A DNA stretch of 64,000 nt from Fragum whitleyi (lineage: Eukaryota; Mollusca; Bivalvia; Cardiida; Cardiidae): contig OX411552.1 of the NCBI GenBank assembly GCA_948146395.1, forward strand, positions 51,450,258 to 51,514,257, written 5' to 3'. Each line of letters starts with the position of its first letter. Within the stretch, counting starts at the first letter, position 1. Below are positions 27,286-63,793 of this stretch, piece by piece. The notes under the pieces are model-generated. The model was given only the letters and a program-made list of their open reading frames with translations, was not told the DNA's origin and made no database searches. The translations under genes were made by a program, and so were the position numbers.

Positions 27286-28852
27286 CTATGATATGGCATG
27301 AACCTTCCCATTTTCAACAGAGTTCATTCTTGTGACCTGGCAAAAATTTTGATCAAGTTTCATGAAGATTGGATTATATTTGTGGCGTTTGGAGCTCTTA
27401 CGAGAAAATTGTCATTAAGGCCCCTTTTCCAGTGATATGGGACGGATACTTCCCATTTTCAAAATGAGTTCATCCTCATGACCTAACAAACATTCTGACA
27501 AAGTTTCATTATGATTGGACCATATTTGTGGCTTCTATAGAGGAAACAAATAAATTGTCATTAAGACCCCTTTTCCCATGATATGGCACGGATCCTTCCC
27601 ATTTTCAATAGACTTCATCCTCAGGACCTAACAAACATTCTGACCAAGTTTCATGAAGATTGGACCATATTTGTGGCTTCTAGAGTGTAAACAAGAAATT
27701 TGTCATTAAGGCTCCTTTTCCCGTGATATGGCATAGATCCTTTCCATTTGAGCAATTTTCATAAGGATCCAACCAAGGAATATTTCTGCCAAGTTTGGTT
27801 GATTTAAACCCATAAGTTTATGAGGAGATGTCGTTTAAAGGATTTCTTGACAAAATTGTCATTAAGGGACCTTTTGCCGTGATATGGCACTGATCCTTCC
27901 AATTTTCAATAGACTTCATCCTCATGACCTAACAAACATTCTGACCAGGTTTCATGAAGATTGGACCATATTTGTGGCTTCTAGAGTGTAAACAAGAAAT
28001 TTGTCATTAAGACCCCTTTTCCTTGTGATATGGCATAGATCCTTTCCATTTGAGCAATTTTCATAAGGGACCACCCAAGGAACATTTCTGCCAAGTTTGG
28101 TTGATTTTGACCCATAAGTTTAGGAGGAGATGTCGTTTTAAGAAATTCTCGACAAAATTGTCATTTAGGCCCCTTTTGCCGTGATATGGCACAGATCCTT
28201 CCCATTTTCAATAGACTTCATTCTCATGACCTAACAAACATTCTGACCCAGTTTCATGAAGATTGGACCATATTTGTGGCTTCTAGAGTGCTAACAAGAA
28301 ATTTGTCATTAAGACCCCTTTTCCCTCGATATGGCACGGATCCTTTCCATTTGAGCAATTTTCATAAGGGACCACCCAAGGAATATTTCTGCCAAGTTTG
28401 GTTGATTTTGACCCATAAGTTTAGGAGGAGATGTCGTTTAAAGAAATTCTCGACAAAATTGTCATTAAGGCCCCTTTTGCCGTGATATGGCACGGATCCT
28501 TCCCATTTTCAATAGACTTCATCCTCATGACCTAACAAACATTCTGACCAAGTTTCATGAAGATTGGACCATATTTGTGGCTTCTAGAAAGTAAACAAGA
28601 AATTTGTCATTAAGGCCCCTTTTCCCGTGATATGGCATAGATCCTTTCCATTTGAGCAATTTTCATAAGGGACCACCCAAGGAATATTTCTGCCAAGTTT
28701 GGTTGATTTTGACCCATTAGTTTAGGAGGAGATGTTGTTTAAAGAAAAAGTTGATGCTGTGACGGACAGATGGACAGATGAACAGAGGGACGCCGGACAA
28801 TGATCGATCACAATAGCTCCCTTGAGCACTTTGTGCTCAGGTGAGCTAAAAA
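27286..28852 (+). mobile_element. Type-A element with ~304-bp higher-order units, 5' end lost
   Basis: Two alternating subunits ('CATCCTCATGACCTAACAAA...GATTGGACCATATTTGTGGC' and 'GACCACCCAAGGAATATTTC...GGTTGATTTTGACCCAT') form a ~304-bp block repeating at about 27608, 27909, 28214 and 28518. It ends with a 'GACGGACAGATGGACAGATG' tract and CTTGAGCACTTTGTGCTCAG, then GTGAGCTAAAAA. Frames over it are repeat translations. Confidence 0.75.
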
Positions 28853-28991
28853 GAGAAAGTCAAACACAGAATAATTTTTGTTATTTGATTCAAAAGGTAA
28901 GCTACTGCACAACCAAAAATGGCCAATTATTGATGACACTTTATAAATACTTTTTGAATGGAAAGGATGGCAAAAGGATGACAATTAAAAT

Positions 28992-29708
28992 AACTAGAAG
29001 TGTCGCAGAGCGGACTAATACCCCCCACAAGCACTTTGTCAGAATACAAGTGCTATTAGTGCAGGATGTGTTTGTAACAAAAATTGAGAACATATGCACC
29101 GTTTACCTGAAGTTTCATGATTCTAGGTCGCTTGGTTTTTGAGTTAGAGTCCAGAAATGAAAATTAAACAAAAATTGACTGTGACCTTGACCTTTGACAT
29201 ATATGACCCAAAAACAATAGGGCACTTCCTTCGATCATAAACAACATTTCCATAAAGTTTCATGCTTGTAGGTCACTTGGTTCTCAAGTTAGAGTCCGGA
29301 AATGAAAAATAAACAAAAATTGACTGTGACCTTGACCTTTGACCTATGTAACCCAAAAACAATAGGGCACTTCTTTGGGTCATAAGGAACATTTGTATAA
29401 AGTTTCATGATTGTGGGCCACTTGGTTCTTGAGTTAGAGTCCGGAAATGAAAATTGAACAAAGGCTGACTGTGACCTTGACCTTTGACCTATGTGACCCC
29501 AAAACAATAGGGCATTTTCTTGGGTCATAAGGAACATTTGTATAAAGTTTCATGATTGTAGGTCATTTGGTTCTTGAGTTAGAGTCTGGAAACAAAAAGG
29601 TCTACGGACGGACGGACAGACGGATTGACGGACGGATGGACAGACAGACAGACATGGTGAAACCAATATACCCCCCTCTACTTCGTAGGTGGGGGGGGGT
29701 ATAATAAA
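28992..29708 (+). mobile_element. Type-E element, full length (~0.7 kb)
   Basis: Starts ACTAGAAGTGTCGCAGAGCG, then GACTAATACCCCCCAC. It has four ~145-bp units with 'AAAGTTTCATGATTGTAGGT' and 'TGACTGTGACCTTGACCTTT'. The tract is GGACGGACGGACAGACGG. It ends ATATACCCCCCTCTACTTCG, then TAGGTGGGGGGGGGTATAATAA. The 5' word ATACCCCC is complementary to the 3' GGGGGTAT. Confidence 0.75.
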
Positions 29709-29894
29709 ATTTAAAACAAGAGGACCATCATGGTCCTAGATTGCTGACCTGAGTCTCTTTGACCCCTGGGACATCACATCAATTAAATAGGCAGATGTCA
29801 ACAAGGAGATAAATTCTAAATAAGATCAATACCATGGAATGTTTTCAGCCAAGAGCAAGACAGAAATGCCTTTTCGCTCTATGATTCTATGTAA

Positions 29895-31767
29895 ACAAGA
29901 GGGCCGTTGGCCCTGGGTCGCTCACCTGAGAAAAAAGCTTCATTACCTAGGTATGTCCATGCAACCACAGAAAAAGAGATTTTCACTTATTCAATCAGAT
30001 AACATTTGAAATAATCCTTCCCCCCTCTGCTCCTCCCCTGGTCATTATTTATTTAAGCTTTTTTCATAAAAGGTCTGTGATCAGCTAATCTATGCCAGAT
30101 ATACAGGCTGAGTCTGAGACTTTTTAAGTTTTCTTAAATGAGTTGATCAATCCATGTCAAATATAAAGGCTGTAGGGACTCAAAATTCTCAACAAAGCAC
30201 CCCCCTCCCCCAAAATGCTCTGCACCTGGTGAATCTACAGTCATGATTTTAGCTAATTCAATTAATGTCCATAATTATGCTGATCATCCATACCAATTTT
30301 CAAGTCTGTAGGACTCCTGGTTCATTAGAAGAAGTTTAAAGATTTCAAAAATGATCCAAAGTACTACCCCCTCCCCAAGACACTCAGCACCTGGTGACCC
30401 TACATTCATGATTTAAGCTATTTTATTTTAGATCCATATGCTTATCATCCATGCCAATATTGAAGTCTGTAGGGCTCCTGGTTTTTTAGAAGATGAAGGT
30501 TAAAGTTACAAAATTTTCACAAAAGTACTCCCCCCTCCCCCCTGTTGCTCCGCACCTGGTGGCATTACAGTCATGATTTTAGCTATTTTTCTTAAGGTCT
30601 TTGAACTGATCCTCCATGCCAATTTTCAAGTCTGTAGGACTTGTGGTTCAGAAGAAGAAGAAGGTTAAAGTAACAAAATTTTCACAAAAGTACTACCCTC
30701 TCCCCCCTGGTGCTCCGCACCTGGTGGCATTACAGTCATGATTTTAGCTATTTTTCTTAAGGTCTATGAGCTGATCCTCCATGCCAATTTTCAAGTCTGT
30801 AGGACTTGTGGTTCAGAAGAAGAAGAAGGTTAAAGTAACAAAATTTTCACAAAAGTACTACCCTCTCCCCCCTGGTGCTCCGCACCTGGTGGCATTACAG
30901 TCATGATTTTAGCTATTTTTCTTAAGTTCTAAGAGCTGATCCTCCATGCCAATTTTCAAGTCTGTAGGGCTTGTGGTTCAGAAGAAGAAGAAGGTTAAAG
31001 ATTACAAAATTTTCACGAAAGTACTACCCTCTCCCCCCTGGTGCTCCGCACCTGGTGAATCTACAGTCATGATTTTAGCTATTTATATAAAGGTCCATAT
31101 GCTGATCATCCATGCCAATATTCAAATCTGTCAGGCTCCTGGTTCAAAAGAAGAAGAAGGTTAAAGATTACAAAATTTTCACAAAAGTACTACCCCCTCC
31201 CCCCTGGTGCTCCGCACCTGGCAGCCCAAAAGATATGATTTTAGCTATTTTTATTAAGGTCTATGAGCTGATCATCCATGACAATTTTCAAGTCTGTAGG
31301 GCTCCTGGTTCCGAAGAAGAAGAGGCCTAAAGATTACAAAATTTACCCAGAGTACTACCCCCTCCCCCCTGGTGCTCCGCACCTGGTGGCCCAAAAGATA
31401 TGATTTTAGCTATTTTTATTCAGGTCTATGAACTGATCATCCATGCCAAGTTTTAAGTCTGTAGGACTACTGGTTGTGAAGAAGAAGAATTTTAAAGATT
31501 TTCTTAAAATTTCACCTTTTGTTGCCATAGCAACCAGAGTTTTTCATGGATTTCAATTCTTTTAGCTATTTTTGAAGGGGACCACCTAAGCAACATTTCT
31601 GTAAAATTTGGTGTTAATTGGCCCAGTAGTTTAGGAGGAGATGTCGTTTAAAGAAATTGTTGACGGACGCCGGACGACGGACGACGACCGACGACCGACG
31701 GACGGACGCCGGAGGAAAGGTGATCACATTAGCTCACATGAGCACTTCGTGCTCAGGTGAGCTAAAA
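29895..31767 (+). mobile_element. Type-A element, complete (~1.87 kb), 165-bp tandem body
   Basis: Start ACAAGAGGGCCGTTGGCCCT, then GGGTCGCTCACCTGAG. About nine units of ~165 bp follow ('TTTTCAAGTCTGTAGG', 'CCCCCTGGTGCTCCGCACC'). The period is exactly 165 between 30611, 30776 and 30941, where units are nearly identical. The end reads TAGCTCACATGAGCACTTCG, then TGCTCAGGTGAGCTAAAA. It is inserted in the A-run of 'TCTATGTAAAAAGGGTTG' of an older copy. Confidence 0.85.
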
Positions 31768-32286
31768 AGGGTTGCACCCGGGTAGAGCCCAAATGTGACC
31801 CCATGGTCTTGATATGAACAAACTTAGTTGAGGTCAAGTTTGTCAATTAGACAAACTAAATATGAAAGCTGTCTGTCTTCTGGTTTCAGAGAAGAAGATT
31901 TTTTAAGGTTTTCCTATTTTCAACCATCATGCTCAGATGAGCTAAAAGGGATGTGCCCAGGTCGAGCCCAAATATGACCCCAGGGTCATAATATGAACAA
32001 ACTTGGTAGGGGCCCACTAGGTGATGCTACACACCAAATATTTAAGCAGTCTGCCATCTGGTTACAGAGAAGAAGATTTTTAAAGATTTTCGCTCTTTGA
32101 TTCTATGTAGAAAAGGTTGGGCCCGGGCAAAGCCCAAATATCACCCCAGGGTCTATATAATCAAACTTGGTAGAGGTCCACTAGATGATAATACTAACCA
32201 AATATGAAAGCTGCCTCCCTTCTGGTTTCAGAGAAGAAGATTTTTGAAGATTTTCATTTTTTACCCTTTGTGCTCTGAAGAGCTAA

Positions 32287-33201
32287 ACAAGAGGACCATG
32301 ATGGTCCTATATCGCTCACCTTCGTCTCTTTGACTTCTCCCTTAGCAAAATTAAATACTTGAAAGATCATTAAAATTAATGATCATTAAATTTTTCAAGA
32401 AACATAACTCTATTTCTATGATCGCTGCATAAATTTCTATCCTTTTCTAAACGAGTTTCATGTGACCTGGCCAACATTATGACCAAGTTTCATAAAGATT
32501 GGGCAAAATTTGTGGCCTCTAAAAAGAAAATAGTCATTTAAGCCCCTTTTCCCATGATATGACATGGATCTATCCAATTTTAAATAGGGTTAATCCTTGT
32601 GACCTAACCATTATGCTGATCATGTTTCATGAAAATTGAATTGTATTTGTAGCTTCTAGAGCGTAAACAAGAAAATTGTCATTAAGGCCCCTTTTCCCGT
32701 AATATGGCACGGATCCTTCCCATCTTTTATAGGGTTAATCCTTGTGACCTGGCCAACATTCTGACCAAGTTTCATGAAGATTGGGCCATATTTGAAGCCT
32801 CTAGAGTGTAAACAAAAAAAATTGTCATTAAGGCCCCTTTTCCCGTGATATAACACAGATCCATCCTATTTTCGATAGGGATCATCCTTGTGGCTTGGCC
32901 AACCTTCTGACCAAATTTCATAAAGATTGGGCCATATTTGTGGCCTCTAGAGTGTAAACAAGAAAATTGTCATTATGGCCCCTTTTCCCGTGAAATGGCA
33001 AGGATCCTTCCCATTTTCAATAGGGTTCATCCTTGTGACCTGGCCAACATTCTGACCAAGTTTCATGAAGATTGGGCCATATTTGTGGCCTCTAGAGTGT
33101 AAACACTAAGATTGTTGACGCCGGACGACACACTACGCACGACGGACATTCAATGATCACAAAAGCTCACCTTGAGCACGATGTGCTCAGGTGAGCTAAA
33201 A
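32287..33201 (+). mobile_element. Type-A element, complete (~0.9 kb), nested
   Basis: Start ACAAGAGGACCATGATGGTC, then CTATATCGCTCACCT. Five ~150-bp units with 'CCAAGTTTCATGAAGATTGG' and 'GGCCCCTTTTCCCGTGATAT'. End GCTCACCTTGAGCACGATGT, then GCTCAGGTGAGCTAAAA. The host copy continues on both sides. Confidence 0.85.
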
Positions 33202-34415
33202 AGATGCGCAAGGGCAAAGCCCAAATGTGACCCCAGGGTCTTAATATGAACAAACTTGGTAGAATTTAACTAGGTGATGCTTCATACCAAATATGAAAGC
33301 TGTCTGCCATCTGATTTCAGGAAAGAAGATTATTTAAGATTTTCGCTCTTTGATTCTACTTAAAAAGGGTTGTGCCCAGGTCCAGCATTTATATGACCCC
33401 AGGGTCTTGATATGAACAAACTTGGTAGAGGTCTACTAGATGATACTAAATACCAAATATGAAAGCTGTCTGCCTTCTGGTTTCAGAGGAGAAGATTTTT
33501 AAAGATTTTCATATTTTCACCCGTTTTGTTAAGGGTAAAGGGAAAGTTAAGGGTGGATTTCATTTATTTGCACAACTTTGGTAGAGCTTGACCCAAGGAA
33601 CATCCCTGCCAAGTTTCAACATGATTGGCATCCATTTAGGAAAAGAAGATGTTTAAAGAAATTGTGGACGAAGGACAGCACACAACTAACGACAGACGAC
33701 GGACATTGCACGATCACAATAGATTATCTTGAGCACTTCATGCTCAGGTGAGCTAAAAAGGGTGGCACCCAGGTGGAGCCCAATTATGACCCCAGGGTCT
33801 TGATATGAAGATATTTGGTATAGGTCCACTAGATGATGCTACATACCAAATATGAAAGCTGTCTGCCTTCTGGTTTCAGAGAAGAAGATTTTTGAAGATT
33901 TACCTATTTTCACCCTCACCCTTTTTGTTGAGGATAAAGGAACAACTCTGGTAGAGCTTGACCCAAGAAACAACCCTGCCAAGTTTCATCAAGATTGGCC
34001 AACCAGTATAGGAGGAGAAGATGTTTAAAGAAATTTTGGATGATGCATGACTGACAACGCACATTGGTTGATCACAATAGCTCACCTTGAGCAATCCAAA
34101 TTTCATGAACAACTGTAGTGGAGGGTCATCCAAGAAACATTCGGGTAAAGTTTCATTGAAATCAGCCCAATGGTTCAGGAGAAGATGTTGTTCAAAGATT
34201 TTGGGCTCAAAATAAGCCCTGCCCTGCCACAGCCATATTTTGGGGTCAATCCAAATTTTTGAACAACTTTAAAAGAGGCTCACCCAAGGAACATTCCCTG
34301 CAAGTTTCATCAAAATCCACCCACTGGTTTAGAAGGAGGAGATGTTTAAAGAAAGGTGTATGCAAGGTCGCACACACACACACGAAAGACACTCTGCCAT
34401 GACAATAGCTCGCTG

Positions 34416-34809: not shown

Positions 34810-35441
34810 ACAAGAGGACCATGATGGTCCTTTATCACTCACCTTCATCTCTTTGACATCTCCCTTTGCAAAATTAGATGCTTGAACGATCATTAAATGA
34901 TCATTAAAATTTTTCAAAGAAAGATATTACTCTATTTCTAAGACCACTGCATAAATTTCTAGCCTTTTCTAAACAAGTTTTATGTGACATGGCCAACATT
35001 CTGACCAAGTTTCATAAAGATTGGGCCATATTTGCGGCCTCTAGAGTGTAAACATGAAAATTGTCATTTAGGCCCCTTTTCCTGCGATATGACATTAATC
35101 TTTCCAATTTTAAATAGGGTTCATCCTTGTGACCTGTCCAACATTCTGACTAAGTTTCATGAAGATTAGGCCATAATTATGGCCTCCAGAGTGTAAACAA
35201 GAAAATTGGAATTAAGGCTCCTTTTTCAGTGATATAGCATGGATCCTTCCAATTTTTGAAAGGGAGACCTGGCCAACCTTCTGACTAAGTTTCATGAAGA
35301 TTGGGCAATATTTATGGCCTCTAGAGTGAAAACACTAAGATTGTTGACGACGGACGACAGACTACGGACGACACCCGACGCACGACAGACATTCAATGAT
35401 CACAAAAGCTCACCTTGAGCACGATGAGCTCAGGTGAGCAA
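34810..35441 (+). mobile_element. Type-A element, complete (~0.63 kb)
   Basis: Start ACAAGAGGACCATGATGGTC, then CTTTATCACTCACC. It has three units of the same kind as the copy at 32287. End GCTCACCTTGAGCACGATGA, then GCTCAGGTGAGCAAA. It has fewer body units than its relative, so copies differ by whole units. Confidence 0.8.
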
Positions 35442-35781
35442 ACAAACGGAAATATCGTATGTTAACAAATAAATTATTTCCCATGTCTGAATCTTTAACT
35501 GGTATTTAAACTCCAAAATTAAAGTTATTTTGATGTCATAAATTTTGTATTTTTGTTTCGTCTGCACTTTAAAATGACATCTTTAGATATAATTAAGATT
35601 TTTAAAAGATCATTGCCCAATCGTAGGGCGAGTGACATTCAAAACAGGTTACAAGTGACTTGCCCCTGCAGTGCCTTTTTCTGAATTCTTTGGACCCTGA
35701 TCCGTCAGTAGAGCTAAATATTAATAAAATCAACTTATGAAGTTTGATCTCTCTTTATCTCTGTTATTATTAAAATGATAA
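35442..35781. other. NSUN2 intron; nothing recognised
   Basis: AT-rich spacer between two complete elements. Confidence 0.3.
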
Positions 35782-36957
35782 AACAAGAGCTTCGTAGAGC
35801 GGCGCATATACGCCCGATGGGGCTTGTGGCTTGTCAGTAACATGAGCTTGAATGATAGCTAGAAAAGTTGCAGACAGACAGACGACTTGGGCCATAACAT
35901 AGTATGACCCTTTGAGTGTAAATTGAAAATGGTTTAATGCACAACTATACGCCAAACAGTCATTTTGCAAGTTTCAGTTCATTCCAATTCAAAGTGTGAC
36001 CAGGTGCTCACAAAAGAAATATAGTGAAATTCAAACAATTCAAGGGTAGATAATACAAGAAAGACCCAAGCTTTTTGAATTTCTAAAGTCTTAAGTTCAA
36101 CCAAATATCAGGGTTACATTGTGGCAAGATTCATTTCAATCCAATCAAATTTGTAGGAGTTGCCCACACACACAAAAAAAATCTGTAATTTTAAACTATT
36201 TTGTGAAGTAAAGGGCAGATAAATCAGGAACTACTTTACATATGAAAATATATTTAGTCCTAAGCACAAAAAGACAACCTACAGAGTTATTGTGGCTAGT
36301 TTCCTTTTATTCCCATCCAAAATGTAGGAGAAAGTGAGCTGACATTTTTTTTTTTTTTTTATTTATTTTTTTTATTTCATTCAACTCAAAGCAGATAATT
36401 CAAGATTTCTCAGGAATGACTGGAGTATTTTGAATTGAAAAGTCTCATGCACAACTAGACATCATACAGAGTAATTGTGTCTAGTTTCAGCTCATTTCAA
36501 TTGATAGTTAAGTAGCTGCACACAAAAAACAGTGATTTTTGTTAAATTCAAGGGCAGATAATTCAAGATTTCTCAGGAATGACTGGAGCGATTTGAATTT
36601 CAAAGGTCTTATGCACAACTTGACATAAGAGAGTAATTGTGCCAAGTTTCAGCTCATTCCCATGGATAGTTCAGGTGGAGTTGCGCACACAAAAAACAGT
36701 GATTTTCGTTAAATTCAAGGGCAGATAACTCAAGATTTCTCAGGAATGACTGGAGCATTTTGAATTTCAAAGGTCTTATGCACAACTAGACATGATAGAG
36801 AGTAATTGTGCCAATTTCAGCTCATTCCCATGGATAGTTTAGGAGGAGTTGCACACACAAAAATTGCTAACGGACGGACAGACAGACGGACGGACAGACA
36901 GACAGACGGACAGACGACCAGGGCCATAACATAATACAACCCTTCTGGCGTATAAAA
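35782..36957 (+). mobile_element. Type-D element, complete (~1.18 kb)
   Basis: Start ACAAGAGCTTCGTAGAGCGG, then CGCATATACGCCCG. The body is ~170-bp units with 'TTCAGCTCATTCC', 'GGGCAGATAATTCAAGATTT' and 'CTCAGGAATGACTGGAG'. The tract is 'GGACGGACAGACAGACGGAC'. End ATAATACAACCCTTCTGGCG, then TATAAAAA. ATACGCC at the 5' end pairs with GGCGTAT at the 3' end. A T-run at ~36350 looks like slippage. Confidence 0.75.
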
Positions 36958-37437
36958 ATTGGAGGATTAGAGGTCATAAGATTCCTTGATACTGTTAAAA
37001 AATTCTATGACAATAGAGGTCTTTAAACAAAACAATGGAAAGCGGTGTTTTACATTGCTGTAGATCTATCCTTTTATTTCTGTTTGATTAAATTCAGCTT
37101 AGATATATCGTATTTAATCTAATAATCACACAGGCTTTTTCTTTGAATAGTCACGATTGCCAAAGTTAGGATGAGCAATTGGACTTAATAACGTATTATG
37201 TTGTGGCATAATTCAATCTTCTTATATATGGACCAACAATGTCAATAAAAAGTCACAATATGATATGTATCTGGTAGAATCAAAACAAATTTCCATAAAT
37301 CCTGAGTGTTATTGAAGCTAGATGATGAACAAAGACGTATACATTCTACTGACACAACTCAGACCATGGCAGTTGTTCATTCGCATTTTCATTAGAAGGA
37401 GCGATAGGCTGCTTACATAACCTTGCTTTATAACTAT
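36958..37437. other. NSUN2 intron; nothing recognised
   Basis: AT-rich, no element ends. Confidence 0.3.
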
Positions 37438-37950: not shown

Positions 37951-37954
37951 CTAG

Positions 37955-40331: not shown

Positions 40332-40625
40332 ACAAGATGTGTTTGTGAAACATGAATGCCCCTGTAACAGCATTTTTTTTCAAAGACTTTTCAGCAAAGA
40401 CTTTGGTACCAGCAGATGCAGATCATTGAGATCTATCATCATGCCAAATATTAGCTTTTTATCTTGAATAGGCTTAAGATATTGGCAATGTTAAGTTTTT
40501 TGGGTAACTTTTGCAGACAGACAGACAGACAGACAGACAGGCAGACGGATGGACAGACAGATGGACAGACAGACGGACAACGGTAAAACAATATGCCCCG
40601 ATCTATCGATGCGGGGGCATAAAAA
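40332..40625 (+). mobile_element. Type-C element, complete (~0.29 kb)
   Basis: Start ACAAGATGTGTTTGTGAAAC, then ATGAATGCCCCTG. A GACA/GGACAGAC tract spans 40514-40578. End ATGCCCCGATCTATCGATGC, then GGGGGCATAAAAA. ATGCCCC (5') pairs with GGGGCAT (3'). It is inserted in the preceding tandem repeat, which resumes at ~40626. Confidence 0.8.
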
Positions 40626-40961: not shown

Positions 40962-42131
40962 ACAAGAGGAACGGAATGGCCCTAAACCACTCACCTGAAT
41001 TTCATTGATCAGTGGATCTCATCCAATCCAAATTTCTTAAACAACTTTAGAAGAGGGTCACCCAAGGAACATTTGAGTAAAGTTTCATTTAAATCAGCCT
41101 AATGGTTCAGGAGAAGATGTCAATTAAAAAATTTCGGGGTCAAAAAAAGCCCTGCCCTGCAACGCCCATTTTTGGGGGTCAATCCAAATTTCTTGAACAA
41201 CTTTAGAAGAGGGTCACCCAAGGAACATTCTGGTAAAGTATAATTGAAATCAGTCCCATGTTTCCGGAGGAGATGTTGTTCAAAGATTTGGGGGTCAAAA
41301 TAAGCCCCGCCCTGCCACGCCCATATTTGGGGGTCAATCCAAATTTCTTGAACAACTTTAGAAGATGGTCACCCAAGGAATATTCTGTTAAAGTTTCATT
41401 GAAATCGGCCCAATGGTTCAGGAGATGAGGTTCAAAGATTTCAGGGTCAAAATAAGCCCCGCCCTGCCACGCCCATATTTGGGGGGTTAATCCAAATTTC
41501 TTGAACAACTTTAGAAGAGGGTCACCTAAGGAACATTCTGGTAAAGTTTCATTAAAATTGGCCCAATGGTTCAGGAGATGTCGTTCGAAGATTTCGGGGT
41601 CAAAATAAGCCCCGCCCTGCCACGCCCATTTTTGGGGGTGAATCCAAATTTCTTGAACAACTTTAGAAGAGGGTCACCCAAGAAACATTCTGGTAAAGTT
41701 TCATTGAAATGGGCCCAATGGTTCAGGAGGAGATGCCATTCAAAGATTTTGGGGGTCAAAATAAGCCCCTCCCTGCCACGTCCATATTTGAGGGTCAATC
41801 CAAATTTCTTGAACACCTTTAGAAGAGGGTCACCTAAGGAACATTCTGGTAAAGTTTCATTAAAATTTGCCCAATGGTTCAGGAGGAGATGTCTTTCAAA
41901 GATCTTGGGGTCAAAATATGCCCCGCCCTGCCATGCCCATATTTTGGGGTCAATCCAAATTTCTTGAACAACTTTAAAAGAGGGTCACCTAAGGAACATT
42001 CTGGCCAAGTTTGGTCAAAATCCACCCATTGGTTTAGGAGGAGAAGATGTTAAAAGACAAGTTTACGCACGCACGCACAATGGACACCTCGCCATGACAA
42101 TAGCTCGCGCGTTTGGCCAGTGGAGCTAAAA
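40962..42131 (+). mobile_element. Hybrid A/B element, complete (~1.17 kb), seven 155-bp units
   Basis: Start ACAAGAGGAACGGAATGGCC, then CTAAACCACTCACCTGAATTT. Units of 155 bp ('GGGTCACCCAAGGAACATTC', 'AAAGTTTCATTGAAATCGGC', 'CCCGCCCTGCCACGCCCAT') repeat at 41056, 41212, 41368, 41520, 41675, 41830 and 41985. End GCTCGCGCGTTTGGCCAGTG, then GAGCTAAAAA. Long frames on both strands (up to 133 codons) are repeat translations. Confidence 0.75.
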
Positions 42132-42359
42132 ATCAGCTCAATATCTCTGAGATTTAGAAACAAGAGGATCTTTGGCCCTGGTCCGCTCACCTGAGTCAAA
42201 GCACCTAGGGGTAACTTGCATTACTTTTGATTCAGATGATAAAGTTATTGAACTGTAACAAATTTATGTGTATAGGAAAATAATGGTCAGACCAGTAAGA
42301 TTCCACAGTCTCAGTTTTACTATTTCTGTTTGAAAATACAAGATCCAAAATGGAATTGT

Positions 42360-42512
42360 TATCAGTCGTTGGTTTTTGCATGATCATTTCTGGGATAACT
42401 ATAGTACAACATTTTTATGCTTAACTTTGATTTCAAGATTGAAATCTCCTGTGATAAATAAAGGTTTTGTTATGTCTACATGAGAAACAAGTTCTTCATT
42501 TAACACTTCTAA
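42360..42512 (-). pseudogene. LINE endonuclease fragment, downstream part
   Basis: Nearly identical to the minus-strand LINE piece at 56400-56586, up to the point where the nested element enters ('ACACTTCTAA'). It represents the end of the endonuclease fragment relative to the part at 43908. Confidence 0.65.
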
Positions 42513-43907
42513 ACAAGAGGACCATGATGGTCCTATATTGTCACCTGTGTATCTTTGTCTAAATTAACTAGTATCAAATTTTCCAGCAAAAGTCGTAATT
42601 GTACTTTTAATGCTTTGGGTCTCTATAGAGTGTAACAAAAGAATTATCATGAAAGCTCCTTTTTCCCGTGACATGACACAGATCCTTCCAATTTTCAAAG
42701 GATTCATCCTTGTGACTTGGCAAACATTCAAACCAAGTTTCATGAAGATTAGATCATATGTGTGGCCTCTTGAGCTTCTAGATGAAAAATGTCATTAAGG
42801 CCCCTTTTCCCGTGATATGATATAGATCCTTCCAATTTTCGATAGGGTTAATCCTTGTGACCTGACAATCATTCTGGCCAAGTTTCATGATGATTGGTTC
42901 ATATTTGTGGCCTCTAGAGCATAAACAAGAAATTTGTCATTAAGGCCCCTTTTCCCGTGATATGATACAGATCCTTCCCATTTTCAATAGGGTTGATCCT
43001 TGTGACTTGATGGTTGATCTGACCAAGTTTCATGATGATTGGTTAATATTTGTGGCCTCTAGAGTGTAAACAAGAAAAGTGTCATTAAGGCCCCTTTTCC
43101 CGTGATATGACACAGATCCTTCCCATTTTCAATAGGGTTAATCCTTGTGACCTTACAATCATTCTGACCAAGTTTCATGATGAATGGTTCATATTTGTGG
43201 CCTCTAGAGCGTAAATAAGAAATTTGTCATTAAGGCCCCTTTTCCCGTGATATGACACAGATCCTTCCCATTTTCAATGGGCTTAATCCTTGTGACCTGA
43301 CACTCATTCTGGCCAAGTTTCATGATGATTGGTGAATATTTGTGGCCTCTAGAGCGTAAACAAGAAAATTGTCATTAAGGCCCCTTTTTCCGTGATCTGA
43401 CATAGATCCTTCCCATTTTCAATAGGGTTAATCCTTGTGACCTAACAATTACTCTGACCAAGTTTCATGATGATTGGACCATATTTGTGGCTTCTAGAGT
43501 GTAAACAAGAAAATTGTCATTTAGGCCCCTTTTCCCTTGATATGGCACGGATCTTTCCCATTTTCAATAGCATTCATCCTTGTGACCTAACGATTACTCT
43601 GACCAAGTTTCATGAAGATTGGACCATATTTGTGGCTTCTAGAGTGTAAACAAGAAAATTGTCATTAAGGCCCCTTTTCACTTGATATGGCACGGATCTT
43701 TCCCATTTTCAATAGGGTTCATCTATGTGACCTGATGGTTGATCTGACCAAGTTTCATGATGATTGGTTAATATTTGTGGCCTCTAGAGTGTAAACACTT
43801 AAATTGTTGACGCCTGACGGCGGAGGACATACGACGCACGACACACGACGGACATTCAATGATCACAAAAGCTCACCTTGAGCACTATGTGCTCAGGTGA
43901 GCTAAAA
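42513..43907 (+). mobile_element. Type-A element, complete (~1.39 kb), inserted in the LINE fragment
   Basis: Start ACAAGAGGACCATGATGGTC, then CTATATTGTCACCTG. About eight ~148-bp units ('CCAAGTTTCATGATGATTGG', 'GGCCCCTTTTCCCGTGATAT'). End GCTCACCTTGAGCACTATGT, then GCTCAGGTGAGCTAAAA. The uninterrupted LINE copy at 56586 fixes its boundaries. Confidence 0.88.
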
Positions 43908-48228: not shown

Positions 48229-48645
48229 CAAGAGCAGCGCAAGCGGGTGCCAACACTTGGCTGTTAATTATTTATTAGGCAAATGCAAATATATGAATTT
48301 GGTACCTACAGAAAGGTCTTGTCCCAAGCAATGATCACATGAAATATGAAGGCTCTTTGACTTACCATTCAAAAGTTCTGACCAAGGTTAAATTTTTTAA
48401 AACAAATTTGACCTTGAAAAATGACCTTGACTTTGACTGGCAACCTTGAACTTGGTACCTACAGAAAGGTCTTGTCCCAAGCAATGATTATGTGAAATAT
48501 GAAGGCTCTATGACTTGCCATTCAAAAGTTATGGCCAAGGTAAAAGTTTGTTATGCCAACCCCAACAACAATTCCAAGGACAACGCCAATGACGCCAAGG
48601 TGATCATTATACCTCGGGTTTTCTTCGAAAACAGCCAAGCTAAAA
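48229..48645 (+). mobile_element. Type-F element, complete (~0.42 kb)
   Basis: Start ACAAGAGCAGCGCAAGCGGG, then TGCCAACACTTGGCTG. Two units contain 'GGTACCTACAGAAAGGTCTT'. The tract is 'CCAACCCCAACAACAATTCC', not GGACGG. End TTTTCTTCGAAAACAGCCAA, then GCTAAAA. CTTGGCTG (5') pairs with CAGCCAAG (3'). Confidence 0.65.
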
Positions 48646-48937
48646 ATTGATAAAGGTCCACTGGATTATACTTCATACCAAAAAAAAGCTCTATGCCTTA
48701 TGGTTTGAGAGAAGAAGATTTTTAAAGATTTCGTATTTTGTTTCACTCCTGGGTAAAACCAAAATTTGAGCCAAGGGGTTTGATAACAACATACTTGATG
48801 AAGGGCCACTAGATTATGCTACCTACAAATATGAAGGCTTTCCACCTTCTGGTGAAAGAGAAGATAAATTTTTGAAGATAAAGCACTTTGATTCTATGTA
48901 AAATTGGATGAGCTCGGATGGGCCCCAAATGTGACCC

Positions 48938-49503
48938 CAAGAGGGCCAGAATGGCCCTAAACCGCTCACCTGAATTTTATTGATCCAGTGGATCTCATCC
49001 AATCCAAATTTCTTGAACAACTTTAGAAGAGAGTCACCGTAGGAACATTCTGGTAAAGTTTCATGGAAATCGGCCTATTGGTTCAGGAGGAGATGTCATA
49101 CAAAAATTTCGGGGTCAAAATAAGCCCCGCTCTGCCACGCCCACATTTGGGGGGCAATCCAAATTTCTTGAACAAATTTAGAAGATGGTCACCCAAGGAA
49201 CATACTGGTAAAGTTTCATTAAAATCAGCCCCATAGTTCAGGAGAGGATGTAGTTCAAAGATTTTTGGGTCAAAATAAGCCCGCCCTGCCACGCCCATAT
49301 TTGGGGGTCAATCCAAATTTCTTGAACAACTTTAGAAGAGGGTCACCTAAGAAACATTCTGGCCAAGTTTCATCAAAATCCACCCATTGGTTGGAGGAGA
49401 AGATGTTTAAAGAAAAGTTTACACACGCACGCACACACGGACGCACGCACGATGGACACCTGGCCAAGACAATAGCTAGCTGGCCTTCGGCCAGTGGAGC
49501 TAA
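48938..49503 (+). mobile_element. Hybrid A/B element, complete (~0.57 kb), nested
   Basis: Start CAAGAGGGCCAGAATGGCCC, then TAAACCGCTCACCTGAATTTT. Two to three 155-bp units like 40962-42131. Tract 'GCACACACGGACGCACGCAC'. End CTGGCCTTCGGCCAGTGGAG, then CTAA. The host type-A body continues on both sides. Confidence 0.7.
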
Positions 49504-49868
49504 TAAACTAATAGAGGTCCACAAGATGATGCTACATACTACATATGAAAGCTGTCTGCCTTCTGGTTTCAAAGAAAAAGGTTTGTTTTTTTAAATTTCG
49601 GCACTTTGATTCTATGTTAAAAGGGTTGTGCCCTGATGGAGCCAAAATATCATCCCAGGGTCTTGATATGAAAAATCCTGGTAGAGGCCCACTAGATGAT
49701 GCTAAATGCCAAATATGAAAGCTGGATGCCATCTAGTTTAAGAAATGAAGATTTTTGAAGAATTTCCTATTTTCACACAAAAATTTTCCTATTTCCTTAG
49801 CAAAAAGCTAAGGGTAAAGGGAGAATTAAGGGTTGATTTCATTCATTTGAACATCTTTGGTAGTGCTT

Positions 49869-50250
49869 GACCCAAGGGTCATCACTGCCAAGTTTAATCA
49901 AGATTGGCCAACTGGTTTAGGAGGAGAAGACGTTTAAAGAAACTTTCAACAAAGCATGATGGACATAGCACGACCACAATAGCTCACCTTGAACACTTGG
50001 TGCTCAGGTGAGCTAAAAGAGAACTCATTGATGGGAGGAGGCTCTTCTTTTATTATAAGACCCAAGGGTCATCACTGCCAAGTTTAATCAAGATTGGCCC
50101 ACTGGTTTAGGAGGAGAAGACGTTTAAAGAAACTTTCAACAAAGCACGATGGACATAGCACGACCACAATAGCTCACCTTGAACACTTGGTGCTCAGGTG
50201 AGCTAAAAGAGAACTCATTGATGGGAGGAGGCTCTTCTTTTATTATAAGA
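49869..50250 (+). repeat. Two-copy tandem duplication (190 bp) spanning a type-A 3' end
   Basis: 49869-50060 and 50059-50250 differ at only about two positions. Each runs from GACCCAAGGGTCATCACTGC, through the element 3' end, into the same ~42 bp of flank ending TATTATAAGA. Confidence 0.92.
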
Positions 50251-51623: not shown

Positions 51624-52258
51624 CAAGAGGGCTAAGAGGACCTGTATTGCTCCACTGGCTTGAAAATCTCTAGACTTTCATTAACCCTTTCCTGTTTAAC
51701 AAAATTTGGACCTGTCCAAATTCAAAGGTTTTGCAGTAGAAAATCAAAAGTGGAATTAATTTGAAAAATAACCATTCAGTAGGGTAGAAAATAGTGTGGA
51801 AAAGGAGAAATTGCTTGTCAGAAGCAATTTCTTCTTTTTTCACAATGTTTTCTCAATTATAAAATCACAGGCACGTAAAAAGCAGGGATTAAACAGCAAA
51901 GGGTTAAACAAGACTTACTTTTACTGAAAACAACACTTTGAACTCTCTTCAGAACTATTTTATAATGATTCACTGGGTCTGGCCCACATTGCACCAAAAA
52001 ACTCATTCACCATAACCTACATACACATTACCCATCTTATTACAAACATTAAGGTAATTGCAATTAGTGGATGATTCTAAACACATTTCCGGGAAAATTT
52101 TAAGTAGATGGTCATTCTTGGAACATGCATACCAAGATTCATTGAAATTAGTCCAATTGATTGGGAGAAGATTTTTTGAGATTTTAAAGCAAAAATTGGC
52201 CCCACCCTGTCACACCCACATTTATAGGCCCATCAAAATTTCATGACTTATTTAAAAA
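51624..52258 (+). mobile_element. Type-B element, 5' end and part of body
   Basis: Start ACAAGAGGGCTAAGAGGACC, then TGTATTGCTCCACTGGCTTG. It shares 'TTTGAA.TCTCTTTAGAACTATTT' and 'CTGGGTCTGGCCCACATTGC' with the copy at 62650. No 3' end. A small hairpin AGAAATTGCTT/AAGCAATTTCT lies at ~51808-51835. Confidence 0.6.
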
Positions 52259-53518
52259 CAAGAGGACCAAGATGGTCCTAGATCGCTCACCTGAGTCTCT
52301 TTGACCCCTGGGACATCACATTAATTAGATAGGCAGATGTCAAAAAGAAGATAATTGTCTAAGATCACTACCATGGAACGTTTTCAGCAAAGAGCAAGAC
52401 AGATATGCCTTTCTGCTCTTTGATTCTATGTAAAAAGGGATGCACCCAGGTGGACCCCAAATGTGAACCCAGGGTCTTGATATGAACAAACTTGGAAAAG
52501 GTCCATAAGATGATGCTACATACTAAATATGAAAGCTGTCTGCCTACTGGTTTCAAAAAAGAAGATTTTTGAAGGTTTCCTATTTTCACCCTTCGTGCTC
52601 AGATGAGCTGAAAGGGATGTGCCCGGGTGGAGCCAAAATATAACCCAAGGGTCTTGATATGAACAAACTTGGTAGGGGCCCACTCGATACTACATACCAA
52701 AAATGAAAGCAGTGTGCCCTCTGGTTTCGATTAAAGAAGATTTTAAAAGATTTTCGCTCTTTGATTCTATGTAAAAAGGGTTGCGCCCGGGTGGAGCCCA
52801 AATATGATCCTAGGGTCTTGACATGAACAAACTTGGTAGAGGTCTACTAGATGATGCTACATACCAAATATGAAAGCTGTCTGCCTTCTGGTTTCATAGA
52901 AGAAGATTTTTGAAGATTTTCATTTTTTTACCCTTTGTGCTCATAAGAGATAAAGGGATGAACCCGTGCAAAGCCCAAATATGACCCTAGGGTCTTGATA
53001 TGAACAAACTTGGTAGAGGCCCACTAGGTGATGATAGATACCAAATATGAAAGCTGTCTGCCATCTGGTTTCAGAGAAGAAGATTTTTAAAGATTTTCGC
53101 TCTTTGATTCTATGTAAAAAGGGTTGGGCCCGGGCAAAGCCCAAATATGACCCCAGGGTCTTGATATGAACAAACTTGGTAGAGGTTCACTCGATGATGC
53201 TACATACCAAATATGAAAGCTGTCTGCCCTCTGGTTTCAGAGAAGAAGATTTTTAAATATTTTCATATTTTCACCCTTTTTGTTAAGGGTAAAGGGAAAG
53301 TTAAGGGTGGATTTCATTTATTTGAACAACTTTGGTAGAGCTTGACCCAAGGAACATCCCTGCCAAGTTTCATCAAGATTGGCCCACTGGTTTAGGAGGA
53401 GAAGATGTTTAAAGAAATTGTGGACAACGGACAACGCACGACGCACGTCGCACGACTGACGACGGACATTCTACAATCACAATAGCTCACCTTGAGCACT
53501 TCGTGCTCAGGTGAGCTG
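52259..53518 (+). mobile_element. Type-A element, complete and uninterrupted (~1.26 kb)
   Basis: Start ACAAGAGGACCAAGATGGTC, then CTAGATCGCTCACCTGAGTC. Five ~165-175 bp units ('TTTGATTCTATGTAAAAAGG', 'GAGCCCAAATATGACCC', 'CATACCAAATATGAAAGCTG'). Tract 'GACAACGGACAACGCACGAC'. End GCTCACCTTGAGCACTTCGT, then GCTCAGGTGAGCTGA. It is the intact reference for the copies broken at 29716 and 48090. Confidence 0.85.
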
Positions 53519-53990: not shown

Positions 53991-53991
53991 G

Positions 53992-56221: not shown

Positions 56222-56812
56222 ACAAGAGGACCTTTGGTCCTAGTCCGCTCACCTGATTCAAAGCACCTAAGGGTAATTTGCATTACTTTTGATTCAGATG
56301 ATAAAGTTATTGAACTGTAACAAATTTGTGTAAAGGAAAATAATTTTATGGTCAGACCAGTAAGATTACACAGTCTCAGTTTTACTATTTCTGTTCGAAA
56401 ATACAAGATCCAAAATGGAGTTGTTATCAGTCGTTGGTTTTTGCATGATTGTTTAACAAGAGAATATCTTGGATAACTTTAGTACAACATTTTTATGCTT
56501 ATCTTTGATATCAAGATTGAAATCTCCCATGATAAATAAAGGTTTTGTTATGTCTACATAAGAAACAAGTTCTTCTTTTAACACTTCTAAAAAACTTGAA
56601 GAAGGCATATGTGGTGCTTTATACAGAACAACAAGCTGTATTTGGTTGGAAGTAAAATCCAGGCATAGTATTGTAAACTCCAGTTGCTTAGAGGTGAAAG
56701 ACAAATGTGTTTTGATAGGAATATTTTCCTTTACATACACACAGGATGGAAGCTGGACAAAGGGTGATCACAGTACCTTACATGAGCACTTTGTGCTCAG
56801 GTGAGCTTAAAA
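56222..56812 (+). mobile_element. Type-A element carrying the same LINE endonuclease fragment
   Basis: Start ACAAGAGGACCTTTGGTCCT, then AGTCCGCTCACCTGATTC. The region 56400-56740 is the reverse-oriented LINE piece. Directly after it comes 'GGATGGAAGCTGGACAAAGG', then the end TACATGAGCACTTTGTGCTC, then AGGTGAGCTTAAAA. It is a shorter sister of 42160-44705. Confidence 0.75.
56453..56740 (-). pseudogene. LINE endonuclease domain fragment (open 95-codon frame)
   Basis: The minus-strand frame contains PLFIMGDFNLDI, the catalytic GDFN motif of the apurinic-type endonuclease of non-LTR retrotransposons, preceded by 'LVVLYKAPHMPSSSFLEVL'. About 95 of the ~220 residues of such a domain are present and no reverse transcriptase follows, so it is a fragment. 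Confidence 0.75.
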
Positions 56813-59541: not shown

Positions 59542-59564
59542 CTGTAAATTTAAACATTAAACTC

Positions 59565-59650: not shown

Positions 59651-59878
59651 AATAAGATGTTTTAATTTACTATATATTTGAAAAATTACATTGACTGATG
59701 GCTTTGACACAGATTAAGATTGCAAAACATTTACAATTTCTGCAAGGTCACATGATGAATATAATTGTAATATAAATTGTATGAGAAATGTTAACAATAA
59801 AATTTCTTCCAGGAGAGCACCTTTTCCCATGACACATCAACATAAAGCAAATAACCTAAAAATCTTGGCTCCATCAGA

Positions 59879-60030
59879 AACTAGAAAGCAATGAATGGCT
59901 TGAGTCGCTCCACAGGCTTGAATTTCTTGTAATTTGCAAACACAACTTTAAAATCAGTAATGTAATCAAAGCGAAAGAAAGCAAATGATTGACTAACCCA
60001 CTAATTAATTAACTAATTGATGGATATTGA
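59879..60030 (+). mobile_element. Type-B 5'-end fragment
   Basis: AACTAGAAAGCAATGAATGG, then CTTGAGTCGCTCCACAGG, as at 5297 and 6863. The body is lost after ~100 bp. Confidence 0.6.
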
Positions 60031-60875
60031 AGTGATAATAAGTGCCGTCAGAGACAGATTATGCTCCCCATATAAGGCATTGTCTCAAAAACAAGAGCCA
60101 TGTTGGACATGGCCATCCCCTGCAACAAAAGCTTGATAGTAAACTGAAGCCTAATAGATTAAGGATTCTTTTGTACTGTAAGAGATTTACCTCCTATAAA
60201 ATCTAAGTATTAAAAATAACAAAGGGCAATAACTCCAAAATTATGCAAGCAAGAGTTGTAGTTTTTAAGCACTGCACTTCTCCTCAATGAAACCTCAGGT
60301 TGATAGCTATTATACTTTAGGAGATATGCTCCGTGGTCAGATTGAAAAGGCTCAAATATGGTGTTATCTTATACAGCTAACAAAGGTAACAAACATTAAA
60401 CCCCCTTTTTGCATGACATATTTTTAGACACAAATTTAAAGTAGTTTATGGTAAAGGGCATCTGATTTGCTACTCAAATGAGAAATTTCACCAAATTCTG
60501 AACATAAGACTAGGAGAAATGAAAGGATAACTGTATTTTAAAAGCTAAGGTTAAGCCTCCTTTTTCCATGATATATTTTTTTTTACATAAATTTCAAATT
60601 GTCTTTAGTAAAAGGCATCTGATTTGCTACTCAAATATGAAATTTCATTAAATTCTGACCATAAGACTAGGATAAATTTGAGAAATACTGTATTTTACCC
60701 TAAGTCCCCTTTTCCCGTGACAAGGCCTCAAATCCAAAAACCGTCACAGATGCATCAACACTATATCATAGGAAGTTCACATGGTAAAATTCATTTGATT
60801 TGGCCCCAGGGTTATGGACGGACGGAATTACGGATGGACAGAAGGCTATATGCTCTCCCTTCGGGGAGCATAAAA
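60031..60875 (+). mobile_element. Type-G element with a second 5' end inside
   Basis: The 5' region has AGATTATGCTCCCCATA (~60056). The 3' end is TATATGCTCTCCCTTCGGGG, then AGCATAAAA. ATGCTCCCC pairs with GGGGAGCAT. At 60091 another start (ACAAGAGCCATGTTGGACAT, then GGCCATCCCC; hairpin GCCATG/CATGGC) suggests a nested or composite copy. Body: 'GGGCATCTGATTTGCTACTC' twice. Tract 'GGACGGACGGAATTACGGA'. Confidence 0.55.
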
Positions 60876-60944
60876 GCCGTGATGGACATTGGAGTAATAA
60901 TAAATTCGAAATATGCAATTTTGTCAAACTCAAGGGCATATCAA

Positions 60945-61947
60945 ACAAGAGGACCTTGATGGTTCTTAATTGCTCACCTGAGCCTAGATAGGTAGAAAAT
61001 CACACTATTGTCAAATGAAGATGCGAGGTTATTATTAAGCTGAAAATTGCTCTTGTGATCTTATGAGTCTTTAATAATCAATATATGTGGCTGTGAAAAC
61101 AGTGAAAAGGATGTTTAAGAAAACTGCAATTTGGTCAACATCATGGTAAAATAATTCAAAAAAGTATATAAGTGCTTTTAAGTGTCCAATACTGAAATAT
61201 TTCTGCAAAGAAAAATTCATAATTGATGAATTATATTTAGAAAATTGGCCTCTGCCTGTTAAATAGATATTTTTAATCCTATCACAATAATTTTGTGCAG
61301 CCTAATAATGGGTCACCAAAGGAGAATTCCAGTGAAATTTGGTTGATATCTATCAATAACATTCTGAGAAAATGATTTTCAAAGTTTCCATTTTATAACA
61401 TATAGAGAAATGACCTCTCCCCATAAAATACATATTTTTCATCTGATCACAATAATTTTGGTTGACTGATAAAGGATCACTCAAGGATCAATCCAGTGAA
61501 ATTTGGTTGATATCCATCACTTAGATTCTGAGAAAATAATTTTCAAAGTTTCTACTATATACCTCCGCCCATAAAATGTATATTTTCCATCTAATCACAA
61601 TATTTTTTTGCAGACTGATAAAAGGTCATCCAAGAATCATTCATGTATAATTTAATTGGTATCCATTAAGTTCTGAGACAAGCCACTTTTTACCATATTT
61701 GGAAATTAGCCATGCCCATTAAATCCATGTTTTTCAATAGATCAAAATTTCTTGAACAACTTTAAAAGAGGGTCAGCCAAGGATCATTCCTGTGAAGTTT
61801 GCTCGAAATTCATCCAGTTGTTGCTGAAAAGATTTTAATTGAAAAATTTACGACTGGACACACAGATGCACGTACTGATGGTTGGACACACAATAGACAC
61901 AGTGCCATGACAATAGCCCCAGTGGCCGTTGGCAAGTGGAGCTAAAA
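60945..61947 (+). mobile_element. Hybrid element: type-A 5' end, type-B body and 3' end
   Basis: Start ACAAGAGGACCTTGATGGTT, then CTTAATTGCTCACCTGAG. Body units are type B ('GAAATTTGGTTGATATC.ATC'). End AGTGGCCGTTGGCAAGTGGA, then GCTAAAAA. This is the fourth case of an A start with a B end. Confidence 0.6.
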
Positions 61948-62649
61948 ACCTATCTGCTAAAAATCATCAAAAAATCTATTTCAGAGAAGAAGACTTTTAT
62001 ATTCCACCATAAGGGGTCTATTTTGGTGACTTGACAGTCCTTAGAACCAAAGTTATCAGATTATATTGAAAGTATTTGACTGAACAAATCCTAGCATTAT
62101 TCCTGTGAAGATTGTTTGAATTCTGACTAGTAGTTTTAGAAAAGAGGATTTTTAAATAATTTTACTATATAGGGTCACTTTACAAAATTTATAAAAGAAA
62201 CAGTGAAACTTCTAATAGATTTAAATTTGAATACCATACCTAAAATGGTTGTGTTCAACTGGTAAATATAAAATAACTAAGTAATTACTGGTATATTAGA
62301 TTTGATACTTGTAAATGAATTGAAAGAAGGAATTGCTTGTTTCTGAAATCAAATCTTTTCTCTTTTATTTTTAAAGATTGAAATCTTTGTTGTCTAGCTA
62401 AGATTTAGAGTGGTATACTTCAAACTAAATTTAAATGCACTGAAACTGTTCTGTGTTTTGTATATAAGATAATATTTGTTTGTATGTTTGCTTTGTATAC
62501 ATACAAGATTTCACAGAGGCCCGCAGGGAAGCCTGGGTTCACCTAACAGTGTAGCCTCTTAAAATTAAGTCAATCTGATTATCATTATATTATTATCATA
62601 AGCAACTTGACAGCCTGAAACACCCAGGGTATCAGCCTGAGCTGAATAA
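61948..62649. repeat. Type-J unit, then unremarkable DNA
   Basis: J landmarks lie at 61985-62165 ('GTGACTTGACAGTCCTTAGA', 'TCCTGTGAAGATTGTTTGAA'). The rest to 62640 shows no repeat ends except a weak J phrase near 62600. Confidence 0.5.
62240..62258 (-). other. Candidate 19-nt microexon upstream of the zinc-finger exon
   Basis: On the minus strand, ATATTTACCAG precedes TTGAACACAACCATTTTAG, followed by a good donor GTATGG. If read LNTTIL plus G, its phase joins the AG that opens the exon at 59541 and gives Glu. The polypyrimidine tract is weak, and a 19-nt exon with matching phase can easily occur by chance. An alternative acceptor 18 nt upstream would make it 37 nt. Confidence 0.2.
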
Positions 62650-63793
62650 ACAAGAGGCCCAAGAGGGCCTGTATCGCTCCACTGGCTTTAACATCTCTAG
62701 CCTTTCATTAAACAAAGCCTACTTTGACGGAAAGCAACACTTTGAAATCTCTTTAGAACTATTTAATAATGATTTACTGGGTCTGGCCCACATTGCACCA
62801 GACTACTCAAATACCATTAACCTGCATAAGAGCCTCATCGTGCCATGCCCATATTTGGAGGTTATCAAAATTTCTTTAACAAAGTAAGTAAGGGGTCATC
62901 CAAGGAACATCTATGCAAAGTTTCATTGAAATTGGCCCATTGGTTTAGGAGGGAAAGATTTTGAAAGATTTTCAAGTGAAACAAGATGTGTTTGTGAAAC
63001 ACGAATGCCCCCGTAACAGCTTTTTTTTCTTCAAAGTTTGACCTTGACAGATGACCTTGACCTTGTCATATGACCTTGATTTTGGTACCAGCGGATGCGG
63101 ATTATTGAGATCTATCATCATGCCAAATATTAGCTTTGTATCTTGAATAGGCTTGAAGATATTGGCAAGGTTAAGTTTTCAGGTTAAGTTTTCGGACGGA
63201 CAGACAGACAGACATGAGTAAAACAATATGCCTGATCTCTCGATACGGGGGCATAAAAATGCCGCGCCCTGCCACACCCATATTTCGGGGTCAAACAAAA
63301 TTTCTTTAACAATTTAATTAAGGGTCACATAAGGAGCATCCATGCCAAGTTGCATTAAAATCAGCCCAATGCTTTTGGAGGAGAAAATTTTTAAAGATTT
63401 TATAGCGAAAATAAGCCTGCTACGCCCATATTTGGGGGCTTATATTTTTTTTATTAACAATTTAAGAAAATGGGGCACCCAAGGAACATCTATGCAAAGT
63501 ATCATTGAAATCGGGACAATGGTTTGGGAGAAGATTTTCAAGTGAAAAAATGCCACGCCCTACCATGCCCATATTTGGGGGTCAATTAAATTTTTTTCCC
63601 AAATTTAAAAGAGGACCACCCAAGGATCATTCCTACCAATAGGCATGTTTTGTTTAAATCCTCCCATTGGTTTCGGAGGAGAAGATGTTTTAAGAAAAAG
63701 TTCACACACAGAAGGACAGAAGGGCTGATGCATGCACAATGGACACTACGCCATTTCAAAAGCTTGCTGGCCTTTGGCCAGTGGAGCTAAAAA
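62650..63793 (+). mobile_element. Type-B element, complete, with a type-C element nested inside
   Basis: Start ACAAGAGGCCCAAGAGGGCC, then TGTATCGCTCCACTGGC. The unit phrase 'CCACGCCC.ATATTTGGGGG' and the end GCTGGCCTTTGGCCAGTGGA, then GCTAAAAA. It is split at 62981-63258. One of its own later units (63535) shows the uninterrupted target sequence. Confidence 0.8.
62981..63258 (+). mobile_element. Type-C element, complete (~0.28 kb), nested
   Basis: Start ACAAGATGTGTTTGTGAAAC, then ACGAATGCCCCCGTAACAGC. Tract 'GGACGGACAGACAGACAGAC'. End CTCTCGATACGGGGGCATAA, then AAA. ATGCCCCCGT at the 5' end pairs with ACGGGGGCAT at the 3' end. Confidence 0.88.

Follow-up and report, generated by a model that had tools for sequence, protein, structure and literature searches.

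The interspersed repeats with paired terminal words in a 64-kb stretch of the Fragum whitleyi genome (C10:51450258-51514257, referred to as the window herein) are very probably HINEs, that is, non-coding derivatives of several Helentron lineages, with a Rep protein of the matching lineage reading the word at both ends. The word itself is the subterminal inverted repeat (subTIR) of the Helentron/HINE. On the element strand, which is the minus strand here, the 5′ end consists of a T-run, then the word within an imperfect palindrome, and then a GTC-rich microsatellite that leads into an interior of tandem repeats. At the 3′ end the word's complement is followed, in most cases after a short hairpin, by CTTGT or CTAGT. 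Thus, as in Helentrons and HINEs, family-specific subTIRs are found at both ends, the 5′ subTIR is palindromic or has an accompanying inverted repeat, and a stem loop lies near the 3′ end. No open frame of 150 amino acids starting from ATG, GTG, or TTG was found in the window, whose GC content is 34-40% per 4-kb segment. Genome-wide searches covered 1,224,646,155 bases on 38 contigs.

We curated 22 elements in the window by nesting, with pairings made using words known beforehand and with orphan ends dropped before the count (e.g., those at 37955, 39847, 40751, 51623, 53519, 53993, 60091, and 60945). Matching words were present at both ends of 20 of the 22 (A 9, B 4, C 2, E 2, and one each for D, F, and G), and the remaining two combined an A-type word with a B-type arm (40962-42132 and 48937-49506). 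The original prediction had listed paired words for seven families, A-G, and this list holds up: the family words and their complements are found in the window, and elements of the same kind also occur at 1-8 kb, beyond the span 27286..63793. Using profiles of A and B ends, we found that true ends are nearly all on the plus strand of the window and that most minus-strand matches are hairpins or repeats matching themselves in reverse.

The matching of the words at the two ends is real. The longest complement between left (L) and right (R) ends was at least 7 nt in 26/27 true pairs (20 from the window and 7 from Rep-bearing elements) versus 9.2% of 554 cross-family pairs, although the cross-family maximum of 11 nt is the same as in good true pairs. 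For w5297 and w46353 the longest complement in this comparison was not the word, one R end being short; with corrected ends their words match at 10/11 and 9/11 positions. Degraded copies match at 7/11 (34810) and 8/11 (42513). When the eight word families were permuted, only one of 40,320 pairings, the true one, scored as high as observed. Genome-wide, the 5′ end of A occurs 5586 + 5478 times as a 35-base pattern. Counts of 5′/3′ pairs by exact pattern matching, with 450-510 bases between the two patterns and both strands summed, gave 140 for A/A, 12 for B/B, 2 for B/A, and 0 for A/B (Fisher's exact 4e-16), and reversed control patterns gave 0 for each of the four. The C5′/A3′ pattern was found six times, which we take as background from neighboring elements; cross pairs are therefore rare, not absent. 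The words are short and were picked by eye for the original prediction, and one cross-family match reaches 11 nt, all of which would suit chance pairing in AT-rich repeats. Both the permutation and the genome-wide contingency contradict this, so that chance can practically be dismissed, and the covariation of the 5′ word with the 3′ arm across families is upheld.

Elements with the same ends that carry Rep are present in the same genome. A genome search with PF14214 (Helitron_like_N) yielded 260 candidates, 150 of which were scored as matches; many of these lie in frames of more than 2000 amino acids, the longest being 2628. Fourteen Rep loci were fetched in length and both ends were visible in seven, namely L155 (with L173) and L169 (with L174) for word A, L161 for C, L163, L176, and L179 for E, and L167 for a further word, H (ATACCCCGCAA), which is longer by one base at the opposite end. 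All seven carry matching words at both ends around Rep. In L153, L157, L165, L177, and L178 only the 3′ end was assigned, and L159 and L171 are without a word assignment. This bears out two earlier proposals, that the elements are of the Helentron rolling-circle type and that Rep/helicase relatives with the same ends exist. The polarity originally given, with ACAAGAG at the 5′ end and TAAAA at the 3′ end, has to be turned around, because in all seven loci Rep is read from the palindromic T-run end (TAAAA) toward the CTTGT/CTAGT end (ACAAGAG).

Pfam analysis of elements with words A, C, E, and H found Helitron_like_N and PIF1 for all four words and DUF6570 for A, C, and E. An endonuclease was matched in the E element L163 (8.7e-8) and, below the cut-off, in the A element L155 (0.0014). 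By their sequences, these elements appear to be the partners expected of Helentrons and HINEs, with Rep, a PIF1 helicase, and an AP-type endonuclease. By regular expression only, HxH was found in 14/14 Rep proteins and a YxxSYxxK-type motif in 9/14; the latter is not in the long L161 frame and four others, some of which are short pieces. Within the window, the element at 56222-56811 has a frame piece that weakly matches an endonuclease (E 0.038, below the cut-off; element strand), and endonuclease-like frame pieces at 42160-44704 were seen by eye only, the one tested having no Pfam match. Separately, the protein of the A-word Helentron in L155 (2218-9998) matches Herpes_teg_N (5.9e-10), hinting at a deubiquitinase-like domain.

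Words A, C, E, and H sort by Rep clade. Among the five A-word Reps, identity in the main alignments ranges from 53 to 84%. Identity is about 30% for C versus A and for E versus A, 34% for C versus E, and 61% for E versus H, and the E and H words are similar. A tree of the Rep region resolves separate groups A (five loci; L159, to which no word is assigned, falls within this group), C (2), E (3), and H (2), with E and H as sister clades (support 0.993); 5 of the 12 words in this comparison were read at one end only. The original prediction had envisaged one shared replication machinery that reads interchangeable words. Much of the terminal motif, the T-run ends, and the general layout are indeed common to the families, and a layout with B and A ends recurs at nine places. 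For the four words that could be linked to a Rep (A, C, E, and H), such a machinery is nevertheless not supported because each word sits on its own Rep clade, two of them as distant from A as stated above, and cross-type A/B pairs are rare. We consider it very unlikely, in an argument whose scope is these four words.

The mixed-family 3′ end has 179 exact occurrences genome-wide, and how often it mixes is judged from a single spacing and two loci. Outside the window it was read at L163/L164 and L180, each time combined with an A-type 5′ end. The layout in which it is joined to a B-type 5′ end occurs at nine dispersed places with one spacing on seven contigs, the window copy included. Because this B/A layout is found at nine places on seven contigs, the mixed ends have probably moved. 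The 5′ sequence is common to the three printed places of the nine, and we infer that the nine represent copies of a single family.

For several of the 22 elements the joined flanks match uninterrupted copies elsewhere, the best being that of 42513-43907 (94% over 139 bases). The junctions of these empty sites fall in A-runs, T-runs on the element strand, with no visible duplication; 20/25 flanks end in A and 14/25 in AA. This is the TT-site insertion without target duplication of Helentrons and HINEs, with a duplication of one or two A possible. The ends and sites do not fit a canonical Helitron (Helitron1, with 5′ TC, 3′ CTRR, and insertion between A and T), nor do they show the terminal inverted repeats (TIRs) and fixed target-site duplication of a TIR/DDE miniature inverted-repeat transposable element (MITE). 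The elements are short and non-coding and have inverted repeats near their ends, as MITEs of a DDE transposon would. Their ends are asymmetric, however, the repeats are not terminal, there is no visible target duplication, and relatives with the same ends encode a Rep-helicase, to which the weak endonuclease match inside one element can be added. We therefore give the MITE reading next to no credence.

Less uniform than first described are the outermost bases. The earlier claim was that ACAAGAG plus a short hairpin begins every family. The motif is enriched in the window (30 occurrences versus 9.9 expected, with a maximum of 18 in 100 shuffles), but several B and E ends read ACTAGA instead and family G is without it: the G word ATGCTCCCC (60061) precedes the ACAAGAG at 60091, and an empty site of G in L173 puts the G start near AGTGCCGTC. 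That the hairpins keep their pairing is not borne out across the families, those of D, E, and F being weak, with perfect 5-7 bp stems after the terminus at 8/13 A ends with exact ACAAGAG, 1/3 such B ends, and 2/2 C ends, and no perfect stem after the terminus in the D, E, and F ends of the window.

As for mechanism, the Rep-helicase-endonuclease of the matching lineage most likely recognizes the word at both ends. It would nick at the 5′ T-run and peel off one strand, stop at the 3′ hairpin, and insert the strand between Ts. Families would differ because Rep and subTIR have diverged together, and related words such as A and B could be mixed on occasion. The original prediction went further in proposing a switch in which the word gives up the local hairpin for the far arm. 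With the polarity corrected, the word of the 3′ end would base-pair with that arm instead of the arm's own hairpin partner, joining the ends or switching their state. On the outer arm, the far word was a better partner than the local arm in 24/29 elements, with 3 ties and 2 worse (non-mixed elements only: 20 from the window, 7 Rep-bearing, and 2 further HINEs), and the far duplex was likewise stronger in 24/29 by duplex energy with RNA parameters. A bridge between the ends would account for this, and just as well would a protein binding one and the same double-stranded site at each end. Moreover, ungapped matching disfavors bulged local arms, and the mixed elements pair poorly (6/11 and 8/11) and yet have their layout at nine places. 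The better far pairing thus stands, and the exchange of strands itself seems doubtful to us. Just as tentatively, each Rep clade might recognize its own subTIR word like a lock its key, the word being read as a base-paired bridge in which the 3′ word pairs with the 5′ outer arm and replaces the imperfect local hairpin; new families would arise when Rep and word change together, and the mixed A/B elements would be tolerated intermediates.

Several observations weigh against HINEs read at both ends by a Rep of their own lineage. The H word is one base longer at one end, and the 5′ ends of the two A loci L155 and L169 are presumed to be the nearest ones upstream. No endonuclease was found in the scanned pieces of C (L161) and H (L167), and among the Rep loci fetched none was assigned to words B, D, F, or G. 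The AT(A/G)CCCC common to C, E, and H could reflect descent without function. The A-runs at the insertion sites mask any duplication of one or two bases, and the B/A layout at its dispersed places implies that a perfect word match is not required. Lastly, blind automatic pairing over 334 kb was weaker than the curated comparison: 15/23 pairs agree versus 8.5 expected (p = 0.00085; shuffles, 20,000 in all, reached 16 at most), with noise and visible false ends that leave it too noisy to stand alone. On balance, we retain the HINE reading at the strength stated at the outset.

The one-way orientation of the elements in 27-64 kb is a separate question. All 27 listed element 3′ ends there have the same orientation (A 15, B 5, C 2, E 2, D 1, F 1, and G 1, orphans included), two-sided 1.5e-8 if independent; two ends of opposite orientation were found at 245 and 501. 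Target asymmetry was rejected as the cause of the strand bias, as A-runs and T-runs of four or more are balanced in 27-64 kb (408/447) and leave it unexplained. Across the fetched loci, 42 end hits lie on the reference strand and 6 are opposed (counting two from L180 and those of the Rep elements themselves), and the same scan gave 35 and 2 in the window, where the 2, judging by position, are one R and one L end that were misread. For the first 100 of 11,064 A ends, on C1, 49/92 adjacent ends had the same orientation (p = 0.29); by distance, the figures were 14/18 at 3-20 kb and 21/39 at 20-50 kb. Genome-wide coherence of orientation is thus weak and short-ranged.

The window also contains gene exons on its minus strand. 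An exon of NSUN2, a tRNA cytosine methyltransferase, lies at 22023-22280 (PDB match E 7e-10, Pfam above the cut-off), and an NSUN2-like exon with a Pfam match below the cut-off lies at 25168-25347. The sense of the elements is that of the NSUN2 exons found. Two more minus-strand stretches, 17066-17335 and 47771-48163, look by eye like NSUN2 exons.

The curated elements are collected in the table below. In addition, the B-element fragment without a 3′ end inside an E element spans window 46513-47365. Head-to-tail or nearly head-to-tail junctions, in which one end is immediately followed by that of the next element, were seen at 20312 in L155 (joined with L173), at 9686-9706 on the reverse strand of L178, and at window 53518-53519. 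Short tandem duplications of an element 5′ end with its flank were seen at window 6250-6504 and 49972-50208.

Table. The 22 curated elements of the window (positions as in the window)
Element	Position	Strand	Remarks
HINE family B	5294..6295	-	terminus ACTAGAAAG; outside span 27286..63793
HINE family B	6861..7672	-	terminus ACTAGAAAG; outside span 27286..63793
HINE family E	28993..29705	-	words ATACCCCCC / GGGGGTAT
HINE family A	29716..33758	-	split by two nested A elements
HINE family A, nested in 29716-33758	29895..31767	-	empty site; inserted in A-run (T-run on element strand)
HINE family A, nested in 29716-33758	32287..33201	-	
HINE family A	34810..35443	-	word degraded, 7/11
HINE family D	35783..36960	-	words ATACGCC / GGCGTAT
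HINE family C	40332..40625	-	words ATGCCCC / GGGGGCAT; empty site
mixed HINE	40962..42132	-	5′ end B-type, 3′ end A-type
HINE family A	42160..44704	-	split by 42513-43907
HINE family A, nested in 42160-44704	42513..43907	-	empty site 56521-56659 (94%)
HINE family E	46353..47534	-	holds B fragment without 3′ end
HINE family A	48103..50018	-	3′ terminus degraded; nested F and mixed element inside
HINE family F	48228..48644	-	words CTTGGCTG / CAGCCAAG
mixed HINE (B 5′, A 3′)	48937..49506	-	one of nine places with the same layout
HINE family A	52258..53518	-	next A end begins immediately after (53519)
HINE family A	56222..56811	-	weak endonuclease-like match 56456-56767, minus strand, below cut-off
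HINE family B	59877..61948	-	contains G
HINE family G	60037..60874	-	words ATGCTCCCC / GGGGAGCAT; no ACAAGAG terminus; empty site in L173
HINE family B	62650..63793	-	words GCTCCACTGG / CCAGTGGAGC
HINE family C, nested in 62650-63793	62981..63262	-	

Taken together, these results link abundant non-coding repeats in the genome with rolling-circle transposons that share their ends and have long frames. The four Rep clades with their four words, along with the mixed-word layout, form a natural set for testing end recognition by Helentron Reps. The parts of the literature that we searched held no statement of words sorting by Rep clade, which is no proof of absence. We also looked for relatives outside this genome by pattern scans of viral contigs (26 stretches in one scan and none in a second) and genome contigs (at least 118 stretches); among the 145 matches listed, 19 passed a crude word filter and none of them resembled an element end.

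The pattern was originally thought to be undescribed. It is, from the portions of the two reports seen, the anatomy of subTIR, inverted repeat, and palindrome already known for Helentrons and HINEs (PMC4067079, PMC7492417). In the sections consulted, Thomas et al. 2014 (PMC4067079) define Helentron families by an identical subTIR of at least 11 bp, describe a 3′ stem loop, TT insertion, and a Rep/helicase/endonuclease partner, note near-identical subTIRs also in families less than 70% identical, and discuss Helitron clustering and tandem arrays. The window elements are like these Helentrons and HINEs (DINE-1) in having subTIRs at both ends, the 3′ stem loop, the TT insertion, and the partner. 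Some copies belonging to A, B, C, E, and G reach 11-12 nt, whereas several others in the window are degraded to 7-10 nt. The likeness drawn to the mite and fly elements is one of anatomy. For the oyster, as far as the excerpts of Vojvoda Zeljko et al. 2020 (PMC7492417) go, its HINEs show element-specific changes in subTIR, inverted repeat, stem, and loop, and Cg_HINE of Crassostrea gigas shares with the window elements a 5′ subTIR of 11-12 bp with a nearby complementary inverted repeat, a GTC-type microsatellite, satellite-like tandem repeats, and a 3′ subTIR followed by a palindrome. Again the likeness drawn is one of anatomy; what differs is that the HINEs are connected here to Rep-bearing elements by shared words and that a mixed-word layout occurs at several places. 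In the Helitron2-like FoHeli of Fusarium (PMC5148889, in the part available), bases of the 5′ hairpin likewise reappear close to the 3′ end in an inverted repeat that is itself part of a hairpin, and terminal sequences are alike within a group, with a 3′ end of CTCCTGT in one of them. FoHeli differs from the window elements in its termini and insertion site and, in that same part, has no endonuclease domain reported.

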